Origin: Diprion similis
Taxonomy: Eukaryota > Arthropoda > Insecta > Hymenoptera > Diprionidae
Reading direction: 5' to 3'
Assembly: GCF_021155765.1 (NCBI RefSeq)
Contig: NC_060118.1
Location: forward strand, 5,580,001 to 5,644,000
Length of the DNA: 64,000 bases
Made by a program: the position numbers and the translations under genes. Under the pieces are notes generated by a model. The model ran no database searches. It was given only the letters and a program-made list of their open reading frames with translations, and had not been told where the DNA came from. Each line of letters starts with the position of its first letter. The stretch's first letter is position 1. Below, piece after piece: positions 4,640 through 36,927 of the stretch.

Positions 4640-5241
4640 CTTAACCCTTTGCGGCAGAGAGTCTAATATGTGAAACACCTGTTTTGAATCGGTTATTAAA
4701 ATTTTATATTCAATTTTTGAGATATTAATGTAATTTTTTTAGGATGTCAATATTGATGTTTTAAGAGAGATTATTATGATTCCGCGAATATAGTGAACGC
4801 TATAAATAAACAAAGTTTTGAAAATGCCTGTTCTTACAAAATAAACCTAATTGTGAGAAGTGTATGGGAATTAGAAAAGTGGAACTAATTAATCTTGGTT
4901 TTTTTCAAAATTTCAAAATTCATAGTAGCGGATCCAATATGACGGACCAAAAACTTGAAAAAATGATCCGATTCGCTTGATGTTTGTTACCTGGAGGTTT
5001 TCGGGATTGCTGAAAACGAATTCGACGTCAGAATCTTAAAATTCAAGATGGCGGATCCAATATGGCGGACATAAAAAATAAAAATTGATGTTATTCGCTC
5101 ATTGTATATTGGATGCGACGTTTTGAATTTCGAAAATTTTTCAGATCTGACACAATTTTTGAAACCACTGACCTCAGGAACCCTTATATACCTAGTTCCA
5201 ACGAATTTGACTGCAAGGTAATACGTATACTTCAAAGGGTA
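4640..5241. mobile_element. TTAACCCTT-ended element, copy 1
   Basis: It is bracketed by TTAACCCTTTGCGGC on the left and CAAAGGGTAA on the right, short inverted ends shared with the copies at 11177, 21094 and 33307. Inside are repeated modules of the type AATTCAAGATGGCGGATCC and CCAATATGGCGGAC, spaced about 120 bases apart. There is no transposase. The family looks like a MITE that carries internal tandem modules. Confidence 0.55.
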
Positions 5242-6249
5242 AAAATCAGTGTTTTGATATTTATTCCTGTTTGACGAGGATATTTTTGGTTACATGGAAC
5301 TAGATTAGCTCCAATGACAGTTTCTTCAACCTCTGTTCCAGCACCATTTGTTTCAACGCTTTTTTCACGTGAGCGTATGTCCCATAAATTCTTAACTAAT
5401 GAGAACAAATGGAGTGTGTGAGTGTTGTATTTTTCCATTTTCTTTGTCGGGGCTCCCACGCAACTCGTAGCCCTTGTAGCCATTCGACAATAGCCTTACG
5501 TCCCCCATAGTTTGCCACATCCGCTCAGTTTCCGCATGTATGGAAATTACACTGCACCGCATTGACGCGTGCGGATATCAGCAAACGCAACGCGACGCGG
5601 CACAACGCGGCTGAATGCATGCATGCAGGAAACGAACAACCCAAGTGACAAGCCTCCTCATCCCCTTCGCTCTATGCAGCAAGAGAGGTTAACTGAGCAT
5701 AAGACACGGATTAACCCGCGCATTCGAACTAATTCTAAGTGACACCCCCATGGTGACAATATCAGGAAATGATCGAAAGTGAAACATATTAAAATAAAAT
5801 AACATTAATCGAAATTCTGATTTCTCAAAAATTAAATATACAAATCTCAAATAACCGATTCAAAGTGGTGAGTCAAGACGCTACGGCGAAGGGCTCAATA
5901 AAATAAAACGCTACCAATTTATTTTTTTTTAATACTATCAACACTAAACAAACGAGCACTGATTGTGAATAAACTGATTAACTTTTTGTTGCACACAATA
6001 GTTAGTAACGTTTTCTTAACCCCAACCTCATATCAGTTCCCAATAGCAAAATATAAGAACACTGAAATAATGGTAGGAAAATATCTGAACGCGAAGGCGC
6101 GTATTTTGAATATATTCGATTCTACGTACCTCTGAAGGGGGGGAACCGGGAGGGCGATGGCCTACGAGCCACCTGTGACCGCCCTATTTCGATAGTCAGT
6201 TAGGAACTCGCGAAAGTCAACGTGTGAATTTCAAGGAATACATAGAGCG
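5242..6249. other. Noncoding stretch with a CpG-rich patch
   Basis: No exon supported. About 5500-5700 is CpG-rich compared with its neighbours (for example ACGCGTGCGG, CAACGCGACGCGGC) and contains GCATGCATGCA. It could be a regulatory island, but no core promoter is obvious. The rest is AT-rich. Confidence 0.4.
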
Positions 6250-10480: not shown

Positions 10481-11176
10481 CTCTAGAATGACCAAAACAT
10501 CGAAAATTGTGAGCCAATGCAAGACTAGAAAATCGAAACAGCAAATTAAGGCATTAATTTTATAGAACAAGCAATAGAGATATTTGCCCGACAAAAATAC
10601 TATCAGGATATCGACTGTGCCATCACACGAAAGATAGCCCGTAGTTATATTCTGTTATGTTTCTTACTCGCAACTTGCATTTATAAATTTTTTCGAAACA
10701 TTTAATAGCAAAAATATCGTGTTTTCTCTCGTTTTGTGCTAGTAAAATCAAAACTAATAAAGCAAATTTCTGCAGAATTGTAATTAGAATTGTTTTATAC
10801 ACTATCTTGCAGTGTGCCTGGATGCGTCAAAAATGGTCCGATTTCGATTTTCCAAACAGATTTTGAAAGTAACTTACTCCACAAAACTGAGATACGGTAG
10901 CTGTTAGGCGCTAGGTGGGAAGTACCGAGGTAAAAGAAAATATAGAAAAAAAAGGTAAAATGGATAAAACGTCAAAGGAAAGTAAAGCTTACCTGAAAGG
11001 ACGGAAAACTCGGCAGCTCAGTATTTGATAGAAGGGAACGTGGGCCGGAGAGGGAAAAGCAGCCACACTTTTTTAAATTGCCAATATTAGAGGTAATGAA
11101 TGTTCAATTTATTTTAAAGTGCACGAAACAGGTCTCGAACATACCTGATTCTAACAAGGAACCCCTATTAGGTGTT

Positions 11177-11347
11177 AACCCTTTGAAGCATGCACTTTTC
11201 CCTGCAGTGAAATTCCTTGAAACTGGGTCTATAAGGGTTCTCGAAGTTGCTGATTTAAAAAATGGAGTCAGATCTGAGAAATTTTCAAAATTCTTAATCG
11301 TAAATCTTGATCTATATATCGTATGAGATGCTGTGCTGTAAAGGGTT
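11177..11347. mobile_element. TTAACCCTT-ended element, short copy 2
   Basis: It starts with TTAACCCTTTGAAGCATGC and ends with GTAAAGGGTTAA, a perfect 10-base terminal inverted repeat bracketing about 170 bp. The interior shares 'gggttctcgaagttgctgat', 'gtcagatctgagaaattttc' and similar words with 5110-5200 of copy 1 in opposite orientation. It looks like a short internal-deletion MITE. Confidence 0.65.
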
Positions 11348-21596: not shown

Positions 21597-22752
21597 AAAA
21601 AAAATACAAAAATATGTGATTACTATCCATTGCGGTATGATTTTTTCATTTAAAGCTCAAACTTCACGATTTCAAGAGGTTGGACATTTTTATTTTATTT
21701 ATTTTCTTTTTAAATCTCATAAAAAACTATTACTGACGATCTCAGACTTGTTTGATATTTTTTCGTATTATTATTATTCCAAAAACCTTTTTATTTATTT
21801 TTTTTTAACATGAAGTAAAACATTTATCTTACAATGCATCAGTAATTTGTCATTAATTTAACTCGGAGGTTGATGTAATTGTAAAATCTTAGTAAATAAA
21901 TTCAACTAATGGTGAACAAAAGAGAATAAATACTCATTTACGTAAATTCTTTTTATTAACTATCCGGTTTATAGCTTATTCAACGGTCATTGTCTAACAA
22001 ATATAACTCTATTTAGGTATTACTGCATGATTCTTTGTTACTTAACTAGCAAAATAATTCATAAGGCTTTCTCATATAACGCGATTAATTTCTGTAAATA
22101 GTATTCGAAAATTCTTTAGGGATTTTACAAATCAAAATACACATTAAGGTACAACTTAGAAATAATATCGAAGATGTTGACTTGGACGAAGGACTTTCTT
22201 TTTGTACAATATTATATGGAAATGAACGCGATCACTTCGGAAAGTTTACAGAAAGTCATCAATATTTTGTATTTAAATACTTTTTTTCGACTGTCGATTC
22301 TCGTGATATACCGATTTATAAAAGCAGAGCTCTCCGAAGCACTTCAGTGACAAAAATCAAAACAGTTTTTCTCAACTTGTCCTTACATTCAATACAATCT
22401 ATAAAAAAATTATGAAAAAAATATTTAAGAGGTAAATTAAGAACGAGACCAAGATGGCTAGAAAAAATTAGTAAAGGATTTTGTTGCAAACGAAAGAAGA
22501 ATAATTATCGTAATAGTCAATTGAGGTATAGTATCGTATAACAGAAAATCAAATACCACGAAGTGTGAAACAGTTGCTCATACTTCTCAACAATGTACTA
22601 ATATATTATAAACATAACAAAAGCTAACGATAATTTATTTGTGTAACTTATACAGCTACTCAGATTATTTGCACCATCTCCGGGGTTTTTGATTATAATT
22701 ATTTAAAAAATACAAACTTATGAAACCGGAAATGCAAGGGAATAACCAATGA
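21597..22752. other. Noncoding AT-rich stretch
   Basis: I see no coding exon or recognisable element. Composition is very AT-rich with several T runs. Confidence 0.4.
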
Positions 22753-23487
22753 AACGCGGCGGACTGAAACTCCTATACCGTTTAAGCGATCAGGATGAAA
22801 CTTGGGAAATTGATGCCTTATTTTGGCAAAAAGTGGAGCGACGTTTTACTTTTTGAAAATGTGGAAAAAAAAATTTACAGATCGGTTATCACATATCGAA
22901 ATTGGGAAAATTTTCACAGTTGCACCGAAAGGATTGAACTATCCGGTATGATGCCACTCGGCACTTGATGAAACACACGCTTTGAGCCCAGTCCCATAAG
23001 ATTTGATGGTAAAATGACAAAATAGCAGCTGATCTGGTTTTACGATTACAAACAACACCAACATCTCATTTTGGCGACACTTGTTACCGATCTTTCACGC
23101 CTGCCGGTAATTTTTTACCGACATTACGCGCATACATTACCGGCATGAGCGTAATGTCGGTAACAAATGTCGCCAAAATGAGATTTCGGTGTTCTTCGTA
23201 ATCGAAAACCAGATCAGCTGCCATTTCGTCATTTTATCATTAAATCTTATGGGCTCAAAGTGTGTGTTTCATCACCGCCGAGTGGCATCATATCGGATAG
23301 TTCGATCCTTTTGGTGCGACTGTGAAAATTCTCCCAATTTCGGTGAGTGATAACTGATCTGTAAATTTTTTTTCCAAATTTTAAAAAAGTAAAAAGTCGC
23401 TCCACTTTTTGCCAAAATAAGGCATCAATTGCCCAAGTTTCATCCTGATCGCTTGAACGATGTAGGAGTCTCGGCTCGCCGCGTTTT
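22753..23487. mobile_element. 735-bp foldback element just 3' of an IQUB gene
   Basis: Two arms of about 340 bp are inverted complements with about 90% identity. The left arm starts AAACGCGGCGGACTGAAACT and the right arm ends AGTCTCGGCTCGCCGCGTTTT. Further mirrored blocks include GGCAAAAAGTGGAGCGAC/GTCGCTCCACTTTTTGCC and CATCTCATTTTGGCGACA/TGTCGCCAAAATGAGAT. A short loop lies at about 23100-23160, itself with CGTAATGTCGGTAA-type symmetry. It ends 68 bases below the IQUB-A stop codon, so an IQUB-A transcript that reads on would contain a very long hairpin. Confidence 0.9.
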
Positions 23488-23555: not shown

Positions 23556-26035
23556 TCATAAATCGAAATTGATACTTCGTGCTTTCGAATCATTCACTGA
23601 TGTCACAGCAAACATATCCAAGGACTTGAAGGTGACTCTGGCTTGTAAATTTTTCCGCAAAAACTTTTCAATCAGATGTTTACTGTAAACGCGATTCGGC
23701 TCTTCAATCTCCTCGTGAACGTTAGCCTCCCTCTTCGTGAGGACCAAAGTGTTCCAAGGTGCCCAAGTCGCCTCTTTTTGGAACCTAACAAGTGCCAGCT
23801 GATGCATGTCTGTGCATTCTGAGATTCCTGATTTCCCGTGCCAAATAACCGTCACCAAGTGCCGGATGCCCTTCGGGCCTATCACGAAGGCCACACTGTC
23901 GAAGGCCCTTTTCTTCGCCTCGTGTTTCCGCACCCTCCGCAGCATCTCGTCGAAGGGCTCGTGCACCGGGCGAACCGAGGATTTTGGCGCTGTATTCTCG
24001 CAGTTCAAGCAGGTCGAAATCCGCTGATGCCTGTTGAGGCCGAACCTGGTGATGGACAGAAGTTTGCCGCACCTTCCGCAAACTCTGGTGATTTGGTTTG
24101 TTGTTGGACGTCGTCCCCCTGGTGAAAATGATTTTGACTATGACAAACTATAAGGAAAAAGGTCGAATCGTAATAATTCATCAAGAGTCGCAAAAATATG
24201 CAACTTCTATAAAATCATAATAGTTTTGTATAGATTTTTGTAGAAGAGTATGAATATAATATCTAGGAAGATCAACAATTGAAATCATGAGATATAACTC
24301 TTCATAAATTTAGAAAAAATAAAAAAGAAGATCTATGCAAAACTACCACCGTAATTGAACGGAATAGTTTCTTTGGATTAAATAGAACAAAACTATGTCG
24401 ATCTACGAAAATCAGAGCTTAGAATTCAAAATGTTGGAAAGTAGGTACAGCCTTTCGTAAGCTCCATGAATTTTCATAAAAGAGTGACAATTTTTACAAA
24501 AAAATTATAATGATCGACAATTTTAGAATTCAATTTATATCTATCAGATTACGAATATGTATGAAATGCGAGCCAATCTGCACTTATCTACTAAAAACTA
24601 CGATAATCTTTGGCAAACTACGAAATCTAAGTTCAAAAACTATGAATCATCCCAAATTCTACACTTTTGATAGAAATTTTCGTAGAAATTCATAGAATTA
24701 TTTTTAACAGATATCCATTTCAAGATTTGATATAAGAAAAATGATCTCGTAAATACGAGCCAATCTACACTTATTTATAGAAAACGTCGATAATCTACGA
24801 AAAAACACGAATTGTTACGAAATCTAAATTCAAAAACTACGAAACGGCCGAAATCCTATACTTTTGCAAAGAAATTTTTGAAAAAATTTATTGAAATTTT
24901 TATAGAAATTCATGGAATTACTTTCACCAGGGCCTTGATTTAACGCAACGGCTTCTTCTTCTGTCCGACATTTGGCGTCGCAGGATGTTTCTCTTCGTAT
25001 GAAATAGAGGAACGCCAGTTTCAAACGAGCCCTCAACTGCTCCAGCATCGTCTCGTGCACGTTCCTCGATAATAAGCAGAGCTCTTGATCGATAAGGTAG
25101 ATTATTTCCAGAACAATTTCACACGTGTGAGCCTTAAAAAATTCCTTGATTTCTAGAAGCAGGTTCAAACGCTCTTTGACCGTTAAACCCAGCCGCGACA
25201 TCGACTCGTACAATCTTTTGTACTCTTTTGCCTTCTGCACTCTAAGAGTTTCCATAGAAACGGTACATCCTCTGTATCCCGTCCAGGTAATCGGCTTTGT
25301 TCGACGGTTCAAAAACTCCATGTTACGTCTTTCCACTTGAACCTGTTTCACCTCAGTCTTCATCCTGTCAATCGCTCGGAGCAGTTCGATTTCTTTCTGT
25401 AATATAACCGCGTGCGCCGCCATCTTGGAACACTTCATGAAAGTCCGATTCGCCCGCTCAATTTCCTCGACCCTCCAACGATCAACCAAATTGTAAAGCA
25501 TTTCAAAATCGTCCCGAGTTCGCGGGTTTGTGGAATTGATAATGTGAAGTTGACGCTTGTTTCCGTGCTGCTCTTCAAAAGTCCTGTAAAAACTTACGTT
25601 CGTCCTTACCAAGTTACGAAATATCGACGCGAAGTGTCGTATCATCGCTCGGGTTCGATAAGCTCTGTAAAATTTTTGAATTTTTACGGCAAAGGCTTCA
25701 AGGTTCTCATTTCGAACGCTGCCATGTTGTAAAACGGCTTTCCTTTGTTTCGGTTCGAACTTTCCCGCCAATAAATACTTGTCCGATATCGTGGGTATGC
25801 AGATTCCATTTTCGAATGTTTGACTGCTCTTTTCCAACGGCACTTCCGTCGATCTGTCTACAGACACCGTCGTTTGCGTGTCTCGATTTATTAGGGAATC
25901 CCATGATACTTTTGGATCTCTTGGACGTGTCTGAGTCGTCGCATTGTGATACTCCCTTTGAGTTCTCGTATCCTTCCACCCACCAAGAAACGGCTTTCTT
26001 ATGCTATGGTTGACAATCTCTACTACGATCACCAT
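23556..26035 (-). CDS. IQUB: IQUB-like protein, copy A (two exons, retrocopy-like)
   Basis: Exons 26035-24928 and 24118-23556, 556 residues. IQUB is a ciliary/flagellar protein associated with radial spokes. Family marks are the RKPFLGGW...YHNATTQT block near residues 14-35, an IQ motif IQKFYR at 119-124, a conserved helical region with DDFEMLYNLVDRW and IIYLIDQE, paired CxxC motifs (C383/C386 and C406/C409), and a C-terminal WHGKSGIS...WAPWNTLVLT block. The ATG at 26035 is chosen because the paralogue at 31088 starts at the same place and TGA lies in frame four codons upstream. The ubiquitin-like domain of longer family members is therefore absent, or sits in exons I did not find. None of the paralogue's four introns is present. 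The only intron, phase 1, is a transposon-like element. Without splicing, translation would stop inside it after about 401 residues. Confidence 0.88.
24117..24932. mobile_element. Introner-like MITE forming the sole intron of IQUB-A
   Basis: The termini on the plus strand are CCCTGGTGAAAATGATTTT and AATTACTTTCACCAGGG, an inverted repeat of about 17 bp with two mismatches. In the gene's sense (minus) the spliced intron is 24927-24119 (809 nt), with exon CCTG|GTGAAAGTAA and TTTCACCAG|GGGGAC. The frame closes exactly: CCT G + GG, then GGA CGA CGT. The interior is about 80% similar to 29041-30228 over several hundred bases, so it is a repeat and not a unique intron. No transposase is encoded. Confidence 0.85.
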
Positions 26036-29040: not shown

Positions 29041-30228
29041 CCCCGGTGAAAATGATTTCTATGACAAACTATAAGAAAAAAAGGGCGAATCGTAAAGATT
29101 CAAGGACGGTAGATTTCTGTGTTTTTTTTTTTTTTTTATAGAAGACTACCACTCTTCAAATTAACGATGTTTAACGAGAATTCACGAAAATATGCAACTT
29201 CTGTAAAAACTTGATAGTTTTATGTAGATTTTAGTAGAAAAGTATGAATATCCATGTAGATCTACAAGTGAAATCATGAGAAATAGTTCCACATACATTT
29301 CGAGAAAATGAAAAATAAAATCTATGAAAAATCACCACCGTAGTTGAACGGAATAGTTTTTTTTTTTTTTATTAAGCAGACTAATACTACATCAATCTAA
29401 GAAAATCTGAACCTCAAATTTGCACTGAATATAGAAGTATGAGAATCTGTGGAAAAACTACAAACGTCATTCAATTAACTAGTTTCTCATGATTAAACAG
29501 AAGAAAACTACGTTGATCTACAAAAATCTAAGATAGGATTCGAAATGTTGAAAAGTACAACTTTTCATAAACTTCATGGATTCTCATTAAAAAAATACAA
29601 ATTTTTACAAAAAATTGTGATGACATATGTATGTATTCAGAATTCAATTTATATCGATAGGATTACGAATATCTATGAGAAGTATGAAATACTATTTTCC
29701 AACCACCGCTAGATGTCGCATCTCTCTCATAAGGAAAACTTATTGCAGACAAGTTAACATCCTAGCAAAATCTGGGTCCACGCATGATAACTAATCTTGT
29801 TATTTTCTGATGGTAAGTATGACCTAGTCAGATTTAGAGAATCTGCCGTATACTTTTGAACGCACCTCATCTCAATAGATGAGTCTTATGAAAAAACTTA
29901 CATTCATGTTATCTACTAAATGACAAATCTAACATAAATGATATTTTAATAAAAATTACATGTACCAAAACCCATTCGAATAGTATTTAATTATACAAAC
30001 ATCTAGCAGAAAATTGATATTATCTATTCCGGAAGAACCAAAACAGATTCGAATTGTATTCCATTGTACAAAAATCTACAAAAAACTACGAATTAGTACT
30101 TAAATCTAAATTTAAAAACTATGAATCTGCCCCTAAATCTACACTTTTGCATATAAATTTCCGTCAAAGTTCGTGGAAATATTTACAGAAATTTCCATCG
30201 AAATTCATAGAATTATTTTCACCAAGGG
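29041..30228. mobile_element. Introner-family MITE, intergenic copy
   Basis: Ends are CCCCGGTGAAAATGATTTC and GAATTATTTTCACCAAGGG. It is collinear with the element at 24117-24932: GACAAACTATAAG then a GCGAATCGTAA block, AAATCATGAGA, ACCACCGTAGTTGAACGGAA, AATTCAATTTATATC, and a terminal AAATTCATAGAATTATT. About 300 bp of extra sequence (about 29690-30000) is inserted relative to that copy. Both splice-critical ends are slightly changed (CCCCGG, CCAAGG), as expected for a copy not under selection for splicing. Confidence 0.8.
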
Positions 30229-31087: not shown

Positions 31088-34000
31088 TCAAGCGCCGAGT
31101 AAAAAGTGGTTACTAAACCTGAAATGACTTTTGGCTTGCTCTTGAGCTAAAAATATTTTGTCAAGTAAACTCTGAGCGTAAACAGTCCGGAAATCTTCGA
31201 TGTAGTAATGAGCTTCGGTTTCCTCCTCGGTTAGTAAAATGCAGTTCCATGGCGACCATTCGATATTTATGTCAAATCTACCAAGTCGCAATTTAAAAAG
31301 ATCGTCGTTCTCACTGATTACCGATCTACCGTGCCAAATGTTGTTAATCAAATGATATATTCCAGGCTCTCGCAAGATGAAGATTAGGCTCGAAAAGCAA
31401 TTCCTTTTCATTTCATCTTCTCGTATACCGTTCAACAGATACGTATACAGGGAGAAATTTATACGAGCCTGTTTTCCCTCGACCAATCTCTCACAAGCTG
31501 AAATTTCGATCAATATTGAATTAAACATTTTAGGCAAATAAAAAATTTTCTTACGCAATAGTTTCAAACAAAGTGTACAAGAAACTATGAAGTTTTACTC
31601 TTCAAACAAATTTTCAGACTAACCCTTTTTACGAGTTTATAAAACCTAACGAAATCGATTTTTTTAATTCTCTACAGATACTGATTTTTTCTAACAAGTT
31701 CCAGATATTTGAACAAAGTTTATCAGCACCAGTTTTTCCAATTCATAATTTATAACGAATATTTGAGATTATTTCCTCGAAAGAAAATATGCGTGTATTT
31801 AAAAAATTTCAGGTTTGTGGGTGAAAACGGTGAACTACCAATCATTCAAATAAAATTCATTCATCAATTACAGAAATGTTGCAGTCTCATTTCAACCATG
31901 TTTGACAAAAAATGTTGAATTGAAATAAACAATTTACAATACAATATCTTCAACAACGCAAAAGCGAACAAATTCATAAAAAATTCTAAACGTATGTTCA
32001 TACTTTTACCTGAACAGAATAAGAGTTTTTTCATCCTCACGTGAGCCGAAAACCTACGATAAGAGAGCATCCTAAAGCAGCGTCTACAAAACAACATATT
32101 TGTTTCCATAGGAAGTCTGAGATCCTCGCAATTTGGATCTCGAGACAAAAAGTCATCCTTGCACTTGCACGTGCAATTTTCACTATTTTCCACAAAGTAC
32201 AGAAACGAATCTGCGAAGGTAAGAAACCATGTAAAGTACACGCCTCAGGTAACAACGATATGTATTATGTGTTCATAGGTTGGGCGGCAGGGCGATAAAA
32301 TCTTTCAGAACCGTAAAAAAATGCTGGCAAAGATTTTATTGTTTTGAATGATTTCAAAGGGGAAAAAAACAAGGAAAGAAAAAATTGAAAGCAGAATTTA
32401 CTCGACATAGTCATTCAAACATTCAGAAAATGTTGCGGACCACATACTGTTCCTTCACGCCTTCAGTGGCTAACTATTTACAATTTTAACCAAAATTCTA
32501 CACCTTTTCATGAAAACTTATGCGATACATGCATATTCATATTTTCAACAGTCACCCGAACGAGGATAGAGTCGAATTTGGTAAGCAAGAATCGATATTT
32601 AAGGTATTTGTCAAAAATCGCACAACTTCGCGCGGCTACTGCTTCGAAACTATAAGTCCCATGGAAAAATGATACTGAACTATTTTGTACAGAACTTTGT
32701 CACCTTCGATTTCATGTAAGACCACCGTACGACAAAGAGAAAACTTGATATTACCGAAAGACCAAAAATTTGTACTTTTGCAGCCTCATGGAGACCAGCA
32801 CAGGCCTCGAGGGTGTGGGGAAAACTTAGATTGTTGTTAATCGCACCCTAATAAACCATTTAAAACAACAAAATCCTTGCCAAAATTTTTTTACGGTCTA
32901 CACTACTTGCCGCCTGGCCTATTGAGGAGGTACGAAGTTTTTTATGTTAATACGTACAATAAAATGCATAAATGCCTTAACCTTCTGTCTAACTTGTTTT
33001 CGATCCAAAACCAAATGCGACTTCAATTCTATACGGATTATATGACGATGCATTTCAATTTCTCACGACAGCTGCATGAGCTGCATCACCAGTCGTTGTC
33101 ACATAATGCGTATAGAATTGAACTCGCGTTTTGTTTCGGACCGAAAACAAGTTAGCCAGAAGGATACGGCATTTGTAAACTTTACTGTACATTCGGGTAG
33201 TCCTTAAAAAAGTCATTTTCGAATTCTGACCGGCTCACTCCCCAAATCAGTTTCCAATATCTAAAAAATAATTGGACCCGTGCCCGTAAGAGGTTGGATT
33301 ACCCCGTTTAACCCTCTCAAGCACACATTTAATCCACAGAACGGATTTCGATCAAGTTTGGTATAAGGGGTTTTTTGGGTCGTTGATTACGAATCTGAAC
33401 TTGAAATTTGGAAATTCCATACGTCGAATTTAATATAATGGACCAAAATCCAAAAAGTCATTTGATTCTGGTAAAATTCGGCGCACGGGGGTTTTGAAGG
33501 TCACAGATTACGAATCTGAACTTGAAGTTACAAAATTCAAAATGGTGGATCCAGTATGGCAACATCAAGTGACTTTGGGAATTTTGGTCCACAGAATCGG
33601 ATCCGCCATTTGAATGTTGTAATCTAGAGTTCAGATTGATAATCAGCGACCTCCAAAGTCCTTGAGTAACGAGCTTCACCAAAATCAGGTGACTTTTTGG
33701 ATTATAGTCCACCATATTGGATACGCCATTTTGAATTTCCAAATTTTTAGTTCAGACGCGTAGTCAGTCATCCAAGAAACTCCGCTAGAACAAATTTTAA
33801 TGAAATTCCTCTTGCGAGCACGGTTTGGAGTTGAGATGAAAATTTGAAAAAAGATAATCATTTTTTCATTGCTTAGAGTCGATTTAAGGAGTGAGCTGGT
33901 CAAAATTCAAAAATCATCTTTTTAAGGACCACCCTAGTGTATATACAAAAAGCGGTTTTCAAGATCAAACAAAAATACGATACTGTACTTTTAATTCTTC

Positions 34001-36927
34001 TCCTCAACTGGTTTAGCCATTTGTTTCTGACTCCACGACTCATCAACGTGATTTCCTGATCGATTAAATAGACCAATTCATTAACCGCTTGACAATGATG
34101 ATACTTGAGTGAATTTTTCAGCATCACTAACAGCTCTGTACGTGATTCGACAGTCGAATTTTTACTGCTTAAATTGTCATACAGCCGTTTGAATTCGCTA
34201 GCACGTTGTACTTTGACAGTGATCATCTGCGTGGGTTTGCCTTTGTATCCGTTCCATTCGATTGGTGCACAATGAAATGTTAAGAACCTCATTTTATTCT
34301 GTTCCAGAAACTCGATTTTAACCTTTTGCTTTAGTTGGTCGATCTCCCTTAACATATCCACCGATTTGTTCAACAATATCACATTCATCGCTCTTTGAGC
34401 GCCTTTAAAAAAGTTGTCTGCAACCCGCTTCATCTGGGAATGTTTCCACTGATCCATCAAGTTGTACAACATGTCAAAATCGGATCTCGTCGACGGATAT
34501 GTCTTTCTTATAATGTCGTGCTGATGCCTCCTCCTATTACAAATGGTAATTGGATTAAATCACATATCGCCAGAGAACAGATATTTAGGATTAAGGGGAC
34601 ACGTCAGTGAAACTCTAAACTTTTTAGATTTACTTAAAATTTGAACTCGTAATAAAGCTCCATAAAACAAATGGTTTTCACACGGTTCGAATCAGTTGCG
34701 TTCCATTCGTTTCCAGAAAATATTTAAAATAACGGCGAAACGGTATCAAAACCATTTATTGGGACAATTAGGTAGTAACATGGACATTATGTCCATAGGT
34801 GGTAACTTGTTGGATCGCAATTTCCACGGCAACTTTTGTTCCCTGCGCTCCTCTAATAGCTGTATAATTCTTTCAAATTTTTACGACTAGAATTCTCACG
34901 CGAGGAGCTTTTCCAAAAACACCACTTTTTCACGTTATTTTCAACAATACCTGGATGCATATGGAACGCCCTACTGAAAATTATTCTGCGATAAATCACA
35001 TCATGTTATAAATAATAAATCATAAACTATTGATTATAAAATAAAAAAAATCAACAAGTCATAGGTTTCGGTGCATGATTTGTTATGTATATTATCTCAT
35101 AATCTATACTTTATGGTTTATCATGTGATTTGTTAAGTATTAGGACATATTTATTTGTTAAATTGCATCACATAAGTCATCCGAACTTTGGTCATAACGT
35201 TATGTGATTTATCACAAAATAATTTCCAAAGAGGGCGTAAAACTGATTAGAATCGATTGAAAATCACTTGTTTTATGAAGCTTTATTATAAGTTCAAGTT
35301 TAAAGCGAATTTAAAGTGTAGAGTTTCACTGATGAACCCCCTTAAGGATACCCCGGTGAAAATAATTCATACTATAAATTATCTTTCGTAGAAAATTATA
35401 GATTTTTATAATTTTCCGTAGCACTTTGTAATTTTCTATGTAAAATATTACGATTTTCGACAATTTTAAACATTTTTCCACGCTTTCGGACAATTTCGTA
35501 CGATTTTCGAATATTTCCTACAATTTTCAACGAACTTCACTTCATTGCAGTTCGGCATAAAAATTACTGTCACCAGGGAAGAATAATTTTTTGAGACAAT
35601 CGACGGAGTGTTTCACTTGTATGCCAACAGCCTTTCTTCCTCGTGCCGTTTGCAGTCTGTCACGAATTGTCGGTAAGTGGCAGCAGACTCTTTTATAAAT
35701 CTGGCAATTCGGTATGCCCTGTAATATTTTTGTATCATCCTAGCCTTGCCTTCGATGTCTAACCTCGATTGCATTTCATTATAAGATTCATAAGGCTTGG
35801 GTGCAACGTATTTGTCCGTGACATTTGGAATGTAACAATCTTTCCTGCAAAAAAATAAGCATGCCAAAGTAGCCTTAAAGTTCATTCATTGCTGGATCAC
35901 TGCACGTGTGAAATCAGCTCAATAATTTGTATAAATTGCATTCCACACGATCTAAGCTCCCTCCGAACACCGACACCTTCGACTTTATATTTCCATTCCA
36001 AAATTTTTAAGAGTCAGAAATTTGACCGCTTACGAAATCCAAGAATTTTAGGATGAACTTAATTAGGAATTGAAATGTTGTCAGAACAAAAAGAAATTAA
36101 TCAATAGATTCGTTTTGAATACAACTTTAATGTCATGTTCAAAAATGTCCTAAATTTTTTTCCGGATTAAACAGACTATTTTACATTAAATAACGACTTT
36201 TCAGATATGGAGAAATTCTATATACACTTACCGTGAAGAAAAAAATTAAGAAATTCAAACTATAGTATACAATTTTTCGATTTTCGAAAAAATATCAAGT
36301 GTGCGGAAAAATTCAAGCGCGGATTCGGGGGCAGGGGGGGGGGGGAGGTTCATTGCCTATAAATAACATTAATTCTAACAAAGTAAATAAAAAATGTCAT
36401 ATTATCCTGTGATAAATGGAAATGGGATTTCTCCAGGTGGAGGAAGACATCGAGTGTTAAAAAATGTATCAATTCCGAGAGAAATTACATAATTGATAAA
36501 GTTTTTGCAGATATAACCAGATTTTGTAAACCGTCAAATTTTAATTCTTGAGAAGTCGATGACGCTCGTCCGAATAATTTTGAAAATTAATCGGAAGAGA
36601 TACTCGCGCGCATAATAAGGGAAAATAAAATCGAAAATATCGAAGGACGGAAGTGGCCCATTTTACCTTGAATGCCCCATAAAAAATTATAGGCGTTAAT
36701 TACCGCGACATTTGAGTTGCCCTGTGGACAGGCGTTTCGGTAAACCGGGTCTTTGTTTCCACCGTTTGAATAGGTCTCACGCATTGAGAGTTCCATGGTA
36801 CTCGTTTCTGCCGAGGCCCAGTTTGAGAATTTGCATTTAAATACTGAACGCCGGTAATCTTGTGCCGCCATCCGCCCAAATAAGGTTTTTTTATCGTACG
36901 ATCTTCCACTTCCACGACGAGAACCAT
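31088..36927 (-). CDS. IQUB: IQUB-like protein, copy B (five exons)
   Basis: Exons 36927-36704, 35844-35617, 34533-33989, 32210-32010 and 31497-31088; 535 residues; all GT-AG with phases 2, 2, 1, 1 closing. Family marks are KKPYLGGW...YLNANSQT near residues 13-35, an IQ motif IQKYYR starting at residue 112, SDFDMLYNLMDQW, the ELVYLIDQE helix, paired CxxC motifs (C374/C377 and C398/C401), and IWHGRSVIS...WSPWNCILLT near the end. It aligns end to end with copy A, but every intron position differs: copy A lacks all four. The product is expected in the axoneme as a radial-spoke-associated factor (known for mammalian IQUB; inferred here). The ATG at 36927 matches copy A's start, again without an upstream ubiquitin-like domain. 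Exon 4 carries both halves of a possible zinc-binding region up to the splice inside the second CxxC. Confidence 0.88.
32970..33174. mobile_element. Foldback element of about 205 bp in IQUB-B intron 3
   Basis: The left arm (AAATGCCTTAACCTTCTGTC, then CTAACTTGTTTTCG, then TTCAATTCTATACG) is mirrored at the right by CGTATAGAATTGAA, CGAAAACAAGTTAG, then CCAGAAGGATACGGCATTT. The loop holds GACAGCTGCATGAGCTGC. No coding capacity. Confidence 0.8.
33307..33850. repeat. TTAACCCT-ended element, copy 4, modules in direct and inverted order
   Basis: It begins TTTAACCCTCTCAAGCAC. The module GATTACGAATCTGAACTTGA occurs at 33385 and again at 33506 (121-bp period). Related modules then occur in inverted orientation near 33610-33650 and 33745-33775, around a centre near 33570 with GGTCCACAGAATCGGATCC. 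The right border is not clear. It lies inside IQUB-B intron 3. Confidence 0.6.
34589..35346. mobile_element. Foldback MITE of about 760 bp bordered by TTAA, in IQUB-B intron 2
   Basis: The left end TTAAGGGGACACGTCAGTG is followed by AAACTCTAAACTTTTTAG, and the right end reads AGAGTTTCACTGATGAACCC then CCTTAA. Inner arms (ATAAAGCTCCATAAAACAA / TTGTTTTATGAAGCTTTAT) and the central ATAAATCACATCATG / ATGTGATTTATCAC also mirror each other. TTAA at both borders would fit a piggyBac-type insertion (inference). It ends four bases before the introner-family copy at 35351. Confidence 0.8.
35351..35578. mobile_element. Introner-family MITE, short copy in IQUB-B intron 2
   Basis: Ends are CCCCGGTGAAAATAATTC and AAATTACTGTCACCAGGG, matching the termini of the elements at 24117 and 29041. 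It is only 228 bp, apparently an internal deletion. Flanks AAGGATA (left) and AAGAATA (right) could be a 7-bp target duplication with one mismatch. It lies within a normal intron, so its own ends need not be used for splicing. Confidence 0.7.
36327..36347 (+). repeat. Poly-G run
   Basis: GGGGGCAGGGGGG followed by further G residues, about 19 G in 21 bases. It stands out in an AT-rich region within IQUB-B intron 1 and could fold as a G-quadruplex on the plus strand. Confidence 0.8.

Follow-up and report, generated by a model that had tools for sequence, protein, structure and literature searches.

A non-autonomous DNA transposon as the probable origin of the coding intron of an IQUB gene in Diprion similis

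In a 64-kb window of the Diprion similis genome (C14:5580001-5644000, the whole stretch of DNA analysed, within a 269-Mb genome), the coding part of the gene IQUB-A is interrupted by a predicted intron that coincides, but for a few bases, with a transposable element. The present study suggests that a non-autonomous DNA transposon inserted into a coding exon of this intron-poor IQUB gene and very probably brought about the gain of an intron de novo. Specifically, we propose that the transposon would have inserted at a CC target in the IQUB-A coding exon and served at once as its sole coding intron, because its inverted ends hold both a 5′ splice site (CCCTG/GTGAAA; a slash marks a splice border) and a 3′ splice site (TTTCACCAG/GG). 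Excision by the ordinary spliceosome would then leave only 7 nt of the element. Together with a 2-nt duplication these would add 9 nt, and the reading frame would survive because 9 nt make three codons. The origin of introns is an old question and clear animal cases of new introns are few; here the target site duplication (TSD), the element, the splice borders and a paralogue that lacks this intron occur together in one 64-kb window. The features that carry the argument, including the terminal inverted repeats (TIRs), are as follows, in coordinates of the window.

24928-26035, minus strand: IQUB-A exon 1 from the first ATG (1108 nt; IQUB homology)
23556-24118, minus strand: IQUB-A exon 2 with the stop codon (563 nt; IQUB homology across the junction)
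24119..24927, minus strand: predicted GT-AG intron (809 nt, phase 1; from frame restoration and the list of in-frame pairs)
24117..24932, minus strand: non-autonomous TIR DNA transposon co-extensive with the predicted intron (816 bp; from the TIR pair, family copies and TSD)
24117..24127, plus strand: left TIR, CCCTGGTGAAA, which on the minus strand supplies the acceptor, TTTCACCAG/GG
24922..24932, minus strand: right TIR, CCCTGGTGAAA, which on the minus strand supplies the donor, CCCTG/GTGAAA
24115..24116 and 24933..24934, no strand: 2-bp TSD, CC (from flank comparison)

Across its predicted borders the minus strand of IQUB-A reads ...AAGGCCCTG/GTGAAAGTAATT ... ATCATTTTCACCAG/GGGGACGACG..., and the two joined exons encode 556 codons and a terminal stop, with no internal stop, while the unspliced frame reaches a stop within the element. 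The spliced product scores 97 bits against the Pfam IQUB-like domain PF25805, which places it in that family (cut-off 27.8), and a solved IQUB chain is collinear with its residues 3-549, through the junction (E 1.4e-60). IQUB is a protein of the kind that belongs to the sperm flagellum. All five stretches matched in a genome search with the spliced protein lie in the window, two of them in IQUB-A and three in the paralogue IQUB-B. An earlier note on this DNA had set the intron borders inside the TIRs of a repeat, with a GT start, an AG end, a frame restored in phase 1 and a stop in the unspliced RNA, and all of this agrees with our analysis. Its statement that the intron is the only one of IQUB-A is taken here for coding sequence, counted from the first ATG. 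The donor it named, CCTG/GTGAAAG, is in frame but not unique. Six bases downstream lies a second donor, AAA/GTAATT at 24921, which this copy owes to a G at base 12 of its donor end; paired with the predicted acceptor it too keeps the frame and would, if used, add 15 nt. Among the GTs examined (24833-25000), four more, unscored, are in frame with that acceptor (24969, 24861, 24840 and 24837), and another donor/acceptor pair, 24949/24138, also keeps the frame. We infer that the intron is spliced in vivo, from a donor at either 24927 or 24921, and that it was gained rather than lost.

The ends of the element match CCCTGGTGAAA exactly and form a perfect TIR over 11 bp; a 17-bp end had been claimed, and the inverted ends are real, but over 17 bp only 15 of 17 bases agree. 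Element and intron borders differ by 2 and 5 bases only. When up to one mismatch is allowed, the window contains 8 occurrences of CCCTGGTGAAA, whereas shuffled sequence contained 0.72 on average and never more than 4. The 2-bp TSD, CC, was absent from the earlier account. Joining the IQUB-A flanks leaves a footprint of 9 nt (NNCCCTGGG), made up of 7 nt of TIR (5+2) and 2 nt of TSD, which reads Gly-Pro-Gly, three codons. By inspection the footprint is free of stops in all frames and orientations (NNC CCT GGG; CCC TGG GNN; NCC CTG GGN). Since the ends are inverted copies of each other, they offer GT...AG in either orientation. On a speculative reading taken up below, each insertion of an intact copy into an exon could directly give rise to an intron that disturbs neither frame nor stops. 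The geometry predicts NN-CCCTGGG-NN at the junction of every intron born in this way.

The element belongs to a dispersed family, as the earlier note held. Blast of the element returned at least 65 matched pieces in the genome, and the 12-base end CCCTGGTGAAAA has 146 genome-wide matches versus 9 for a reversed control. The ends CCCYGGTGAAAATRATT and CCCYGGTGAAAATTT have 46 and 32 matches, each versus 0 in the control, and a 23-base end with at most three mismatches has 115 versus 1. Counts of family copies cover the examined loci, with 100 genomic places listed for each of CCCTGGTGAAAA and the 23-base end. A copy was defined as two ends that face inward and lie 150-1300 bp apart, neither with more than one mismatch, irrespective of the flanks; overlapping loci were merged into one and pairs enclosing another left end were discarded. 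This gave 31 pairs in a first set and, with 12 further loci, 35 strict pairs and 59 relaxed ones, in which one end may have up to two mismatches. The 2-bp flanks are identical in 23 of the 31 TIR-defined pairs, where re-pairing expects 3.3 and reached at most 10 in 2000 shuffles. Identity over 3 bp occurs in 1/31 pairs and over 4 bp in 0/31, and the signal is gone when the borders are shifted by 1-4 bases. An exact 2-bp TSD is present in 25 of the 35 strict and 35 of the 59 relaxed pairs, and the duplicated bases vary (AA, AT, TA, CA, CT, TT, CC, GC, AC, TC, TG, GT). The family is thus a non-autonomous TIR transposon with the TIR CCCYGGTGAAA and a 2-bp TSD of varied sequence; being short, with TIRs, a TSD of fixed length and dispersed copies, it has all the hallmarks of a miniature inverted-repeat transposable element.

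Two superfamily labels were considered and rejected. CACTA/EnSpm (CMC) elements have ends that begin CACTA or CACTG and a TSD of 2-3 bp. The TSD length of the present family agrees with this (2 bp), and one end (L051) starts CACTGG, but most ends of the 31 pairs start CCCYGG, not CAC. The piggyBac elements have CCC ends and duplicate a TTAA target, whereas the TSD here is 2 bp, varied and without TTAA.

The paralogue also provides evidence for a gain.

31088..36927, minus strand: IQUB-B, five modelled exons (36927-36704, 35844-35617, 34533-33989, 32210-32010, 31497-31088)

The IQUB-B model comprises 535 codons and a stop, with four GT-AG introns whose donors are GTAATT, GTGAAA, GTACAG and GTAAAA; its product matches IQUB at 6.9e-69 and is identical to IQUB-A at 193 of 531 aligned positions. 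Residue 370 of IQUB-A, where its intron lies, falls between IQUB-B introns 3 and 4, in exon 4, where the alignment shows IQUB-B to be continuous, in keeping with the earlier claim. In the same alignment IQUB-A is without all four IQUB-B introns, and it therefore looks like an intron-stripped copy, formed by retroposition or by reverse-transcription-mediated intron loss, that would have gained one intron later. Gain by insertion is supported and is much the most economical reading, because transposon and intron cover the same stretch to within a few bases and the paralogue has no such intron; the same two facts favour the earlier proposal that the intron was probably gained in copy A. Donors like both IQUB-A candidates occur in IQUB-B (GTGAAA in intron 2, GTAATT in intron 1).

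A rival reading is that the family is a true arthropod Introner family that created many introns, in either orientation. A GT and an AG are properly placed in 54 of the 70 orientations of the 35 strict pairs (GT only in 12, AG only in 3, neither in 1), the AG being abolished by a CCCC end, of which there are nine in the 31-pair list, and the 9-nt footprint is stop-free by geometry. Against this, demonstrable coding sequence lies at one of the 35 strict and one of the 59 relaxed pairs, and in both sets it is IQUB-A. This assessment rests on an open-frame score, for which the flanks of paired copies were joined and the open frame across the junction was scored (for 40 hand-picked pairs, for loci L083-L102 and for all loci plus the window). 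The joined IQUB-A flanks are open over 200+188 codons with 600-nt flanks and 300+188 with 900-nt flanks. IQUB-A scores 764, the next strict copies 240, 226 and 214, and the best relaxed pair 268; none of the 5000 points drawn at random from 57 IQUB-free loci reached 764 (maximum 478). The 15 other joined frames searched, which were all 13 non-IQUB frames of the relaxed top 14 together with L077 and L098, gave no Pfam match at the cut-off and one below it (E 0.023, among 10 of the 15), a silence compatible with a short exon that holds no domain known to Pfam. The joined-flank test would pass over intronic copies that are old and decayed, as well as any outside the examined loci, and the copy number is too small to tell whether coding insertions are favoured or depleted.

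The family thus has the TIR and TSD of a DNA transposon, as Introners may; an element that equals a predicted intron up to its splice borders is found at IQUB-A only, and several introns from the same family were not found among the 35 strict and 59 relaxed pairs. The capacity to make introns seems to be written in the anatomy of the ends, yet one case is demonstrable, and the family is not established as an Introner family. That it is one in the full sense we regard as unlikely. Slightly less doubtful, though still speculative, is the idea of an arthropod transposon family with ready-made intron ends that work in either orientation and always add three sense codons, IQUB-A being the clearest survivor of a larger set that has mostly decayed. 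The strand-independent intron generator of the earlier note stands as anatomy, but with one of 35 copies in coding sequence it does not stand as a demonstrated source of many introns. A candidate second intron at L006/L052 (168+30 codons) was dropped for want of a protein signal. By eye, the best relaxed rival, L049, seems to include a stretch related to the fold-back repeat at 22752-23486, beside a family copy.

Could IQUB-A instead be a pseudogene, broken by the element, from which nothing is spliced? A full-length paralogue, IQUB-B, is present and the splice sites look weak by the general consensus, but 556 codons are intact around an element no more than 83% identical to the other listed copies (≥100 bp), and GT-AG excision fits frame and phase exactly; this explanation appears quite improbable. 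The 53 genomic matches of 100 bp or longer that were listed, overlapping loci included, are all 83% identical to the element or less, and the insertion is for that reason probably old rather than recent. We simulated neutral decay with events that redraw a base (about a quarter of them leaving it unchanged) and an indel rate of 0.1 per event, with two in three indels shifting the frame. At 0.03 events per site a 1671-nt frame stayed intact with a chance of 0.005, and at 0.05 with a chance of 0.0003. Judged from an old insertion and an intact frame, splicing of IQUB-A is likely.

Several observations weigh against an intron that arose by insertion and has long been spliced. Identity to the element is higher for shorter pieces, at 88% for 92 bp and 93% for 40 bp, and part of the divergence may predate the insertion, if the source element had already diverged, which leaves the date uncertain. 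If indels are left out, the simulated chance of an intact frame rises to 0.12 (0.03 events per site) and 0.034 (0.05 events per site); at the higher of these rates, the chance for exon 2 by itself is 0.053 with indels and 0.38 without. Both candidate donors are weak by the general consensus. The Gly-Pro-Gly residues fall in a poorly conserved stretch of the alignment, where extra residues are uncheckable. Finally, a first null distribution for the open-frame score (3000 points), which included IQUB and possibly genic loci, had a maximum of 775, above IQUB-A, and a 99.9th percentile of 707.

An older intron at the site, into which the element inserted and whose borders its ends later became or nearly replaced, is a still less probable source of the present arrangement. 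Transposons within existing introns are common, and a family copy sits in intron 2 of IQUB-B; at IQUB-A, by contrast, the TSD and TIR ends lie at the exon edges, no older intron sequence remains outside the element, and IQUB-B has no intron at the site. Least probable of all is that ordinary splice sites play no part and the element leaves the RNA through pairing of its inverted ends, akin to the repair-like splicing of transposons reported in worms: the ends are complementary and able to pair, but their perfect arms span only 11 bp and a canonical GT and AG stand at frame-restoring places.

Introns made by transposons are already known, and what sets the proposed IQUB-A case apart is the 2-bp duplication, the position of both splice sites within the TIRs and a 9-nt footprint that disturbs neither frame nor stops. 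Giroux and colleagues are said, going by a title of 1994, to have found that a DNA transposon, maize Ds, made a new intron; in that respect IQUB-A resembles it, although maize Ds belongs to another superfamily and has other ends. The D. similis genome carries TTAGG, the arthropod-type telomere repeat (17,045 pattern matches genome-wide versus 0 for the reversed control).

Gozashti et al. 2022 describe 548 Introner families in 175 genomes, with Introners in 2.6% of non-aquatic species (35/1367), and the word "insect" occurs once in the main text, within a reference (PMC9860276). Their Introners include families with TIR and TSD, and in an Aureococcus case 12 bp are added, of which the element gives 4 and the TSD 8 (PMC9860276). 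Like such Introners, the IQUB-A intron would be a non-autonomous TIR/TSD element with element-borne splice sites that adds codons; unlike them, one intron is found here, the TSD is 2 bp, 9 nt are added and the host has arthropod-type telomeres. A review names transposon insertion as one proposed route of intron gain, mentions elements with splice sites near their borders, cites maize Ds (Giroux et al. 1994) and tables 35 transposon-gain events in Oryza, Drosophila, Oikopleura and Zea, on indirect evidence only (PMC3443670). In its scheme, insertion occurs at AGGT and the duplication gives the splice sites, whereas at IQUB-A the TIRs would give them and the target varies across the family. The introners of Amoebophrya (PMC7789003) resemble IQUB-A in their inverted repeats at the ends and short direct repeats at the boundaries, but differ in being non-canonical introns with direct repeats of 3-5 nt and many intron copies. 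An insect genome paper merely cites the transposon-intron idea (PMC12879420), and a paper on human intron gain mentions it (PMC12124190). Among the literature matches listed, judged by title and the start of the abstract and with subscription literature mostly outside their scope, there was no insect Introner family, nor did a term for worm-type repair-like splicing occur among them.

Two other copies of the family lie in the window.

29041..30227, plus strand: second family copy (1187 bp, TSD GC; between the IQUB-A and IQUB-B models)
35351..35578, plus strand: third, short family copy (228 bp; in IQUB-B intron 2, 35616-34534; no TSD match)

The third copy lies about 40 bp from the donor of IQUB-B intron 2 and has the end CCCTG/GTGACAGTAATT. 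Elsewhere in the genome, locus L056 (C1:16786000-16793500) has several whole and partial copies of the family clustered within a few kb, which may be insertions nested in one another. The fold-back element at 22752-23486 is about 735 bp long, its halves are inverted copies of each other (85% identity), and it begins some 70 bp past the stop codon of IQUB-A. Another dispersed repeat occurs at 4901-5400, 11175-11293 and 33702-33738; positions 5125-5243 match 11293-11175 at 79% over 119 bp, and a 37-bp match to the same repeat, at 89%, lies near 33.7 kb (33702-33738).
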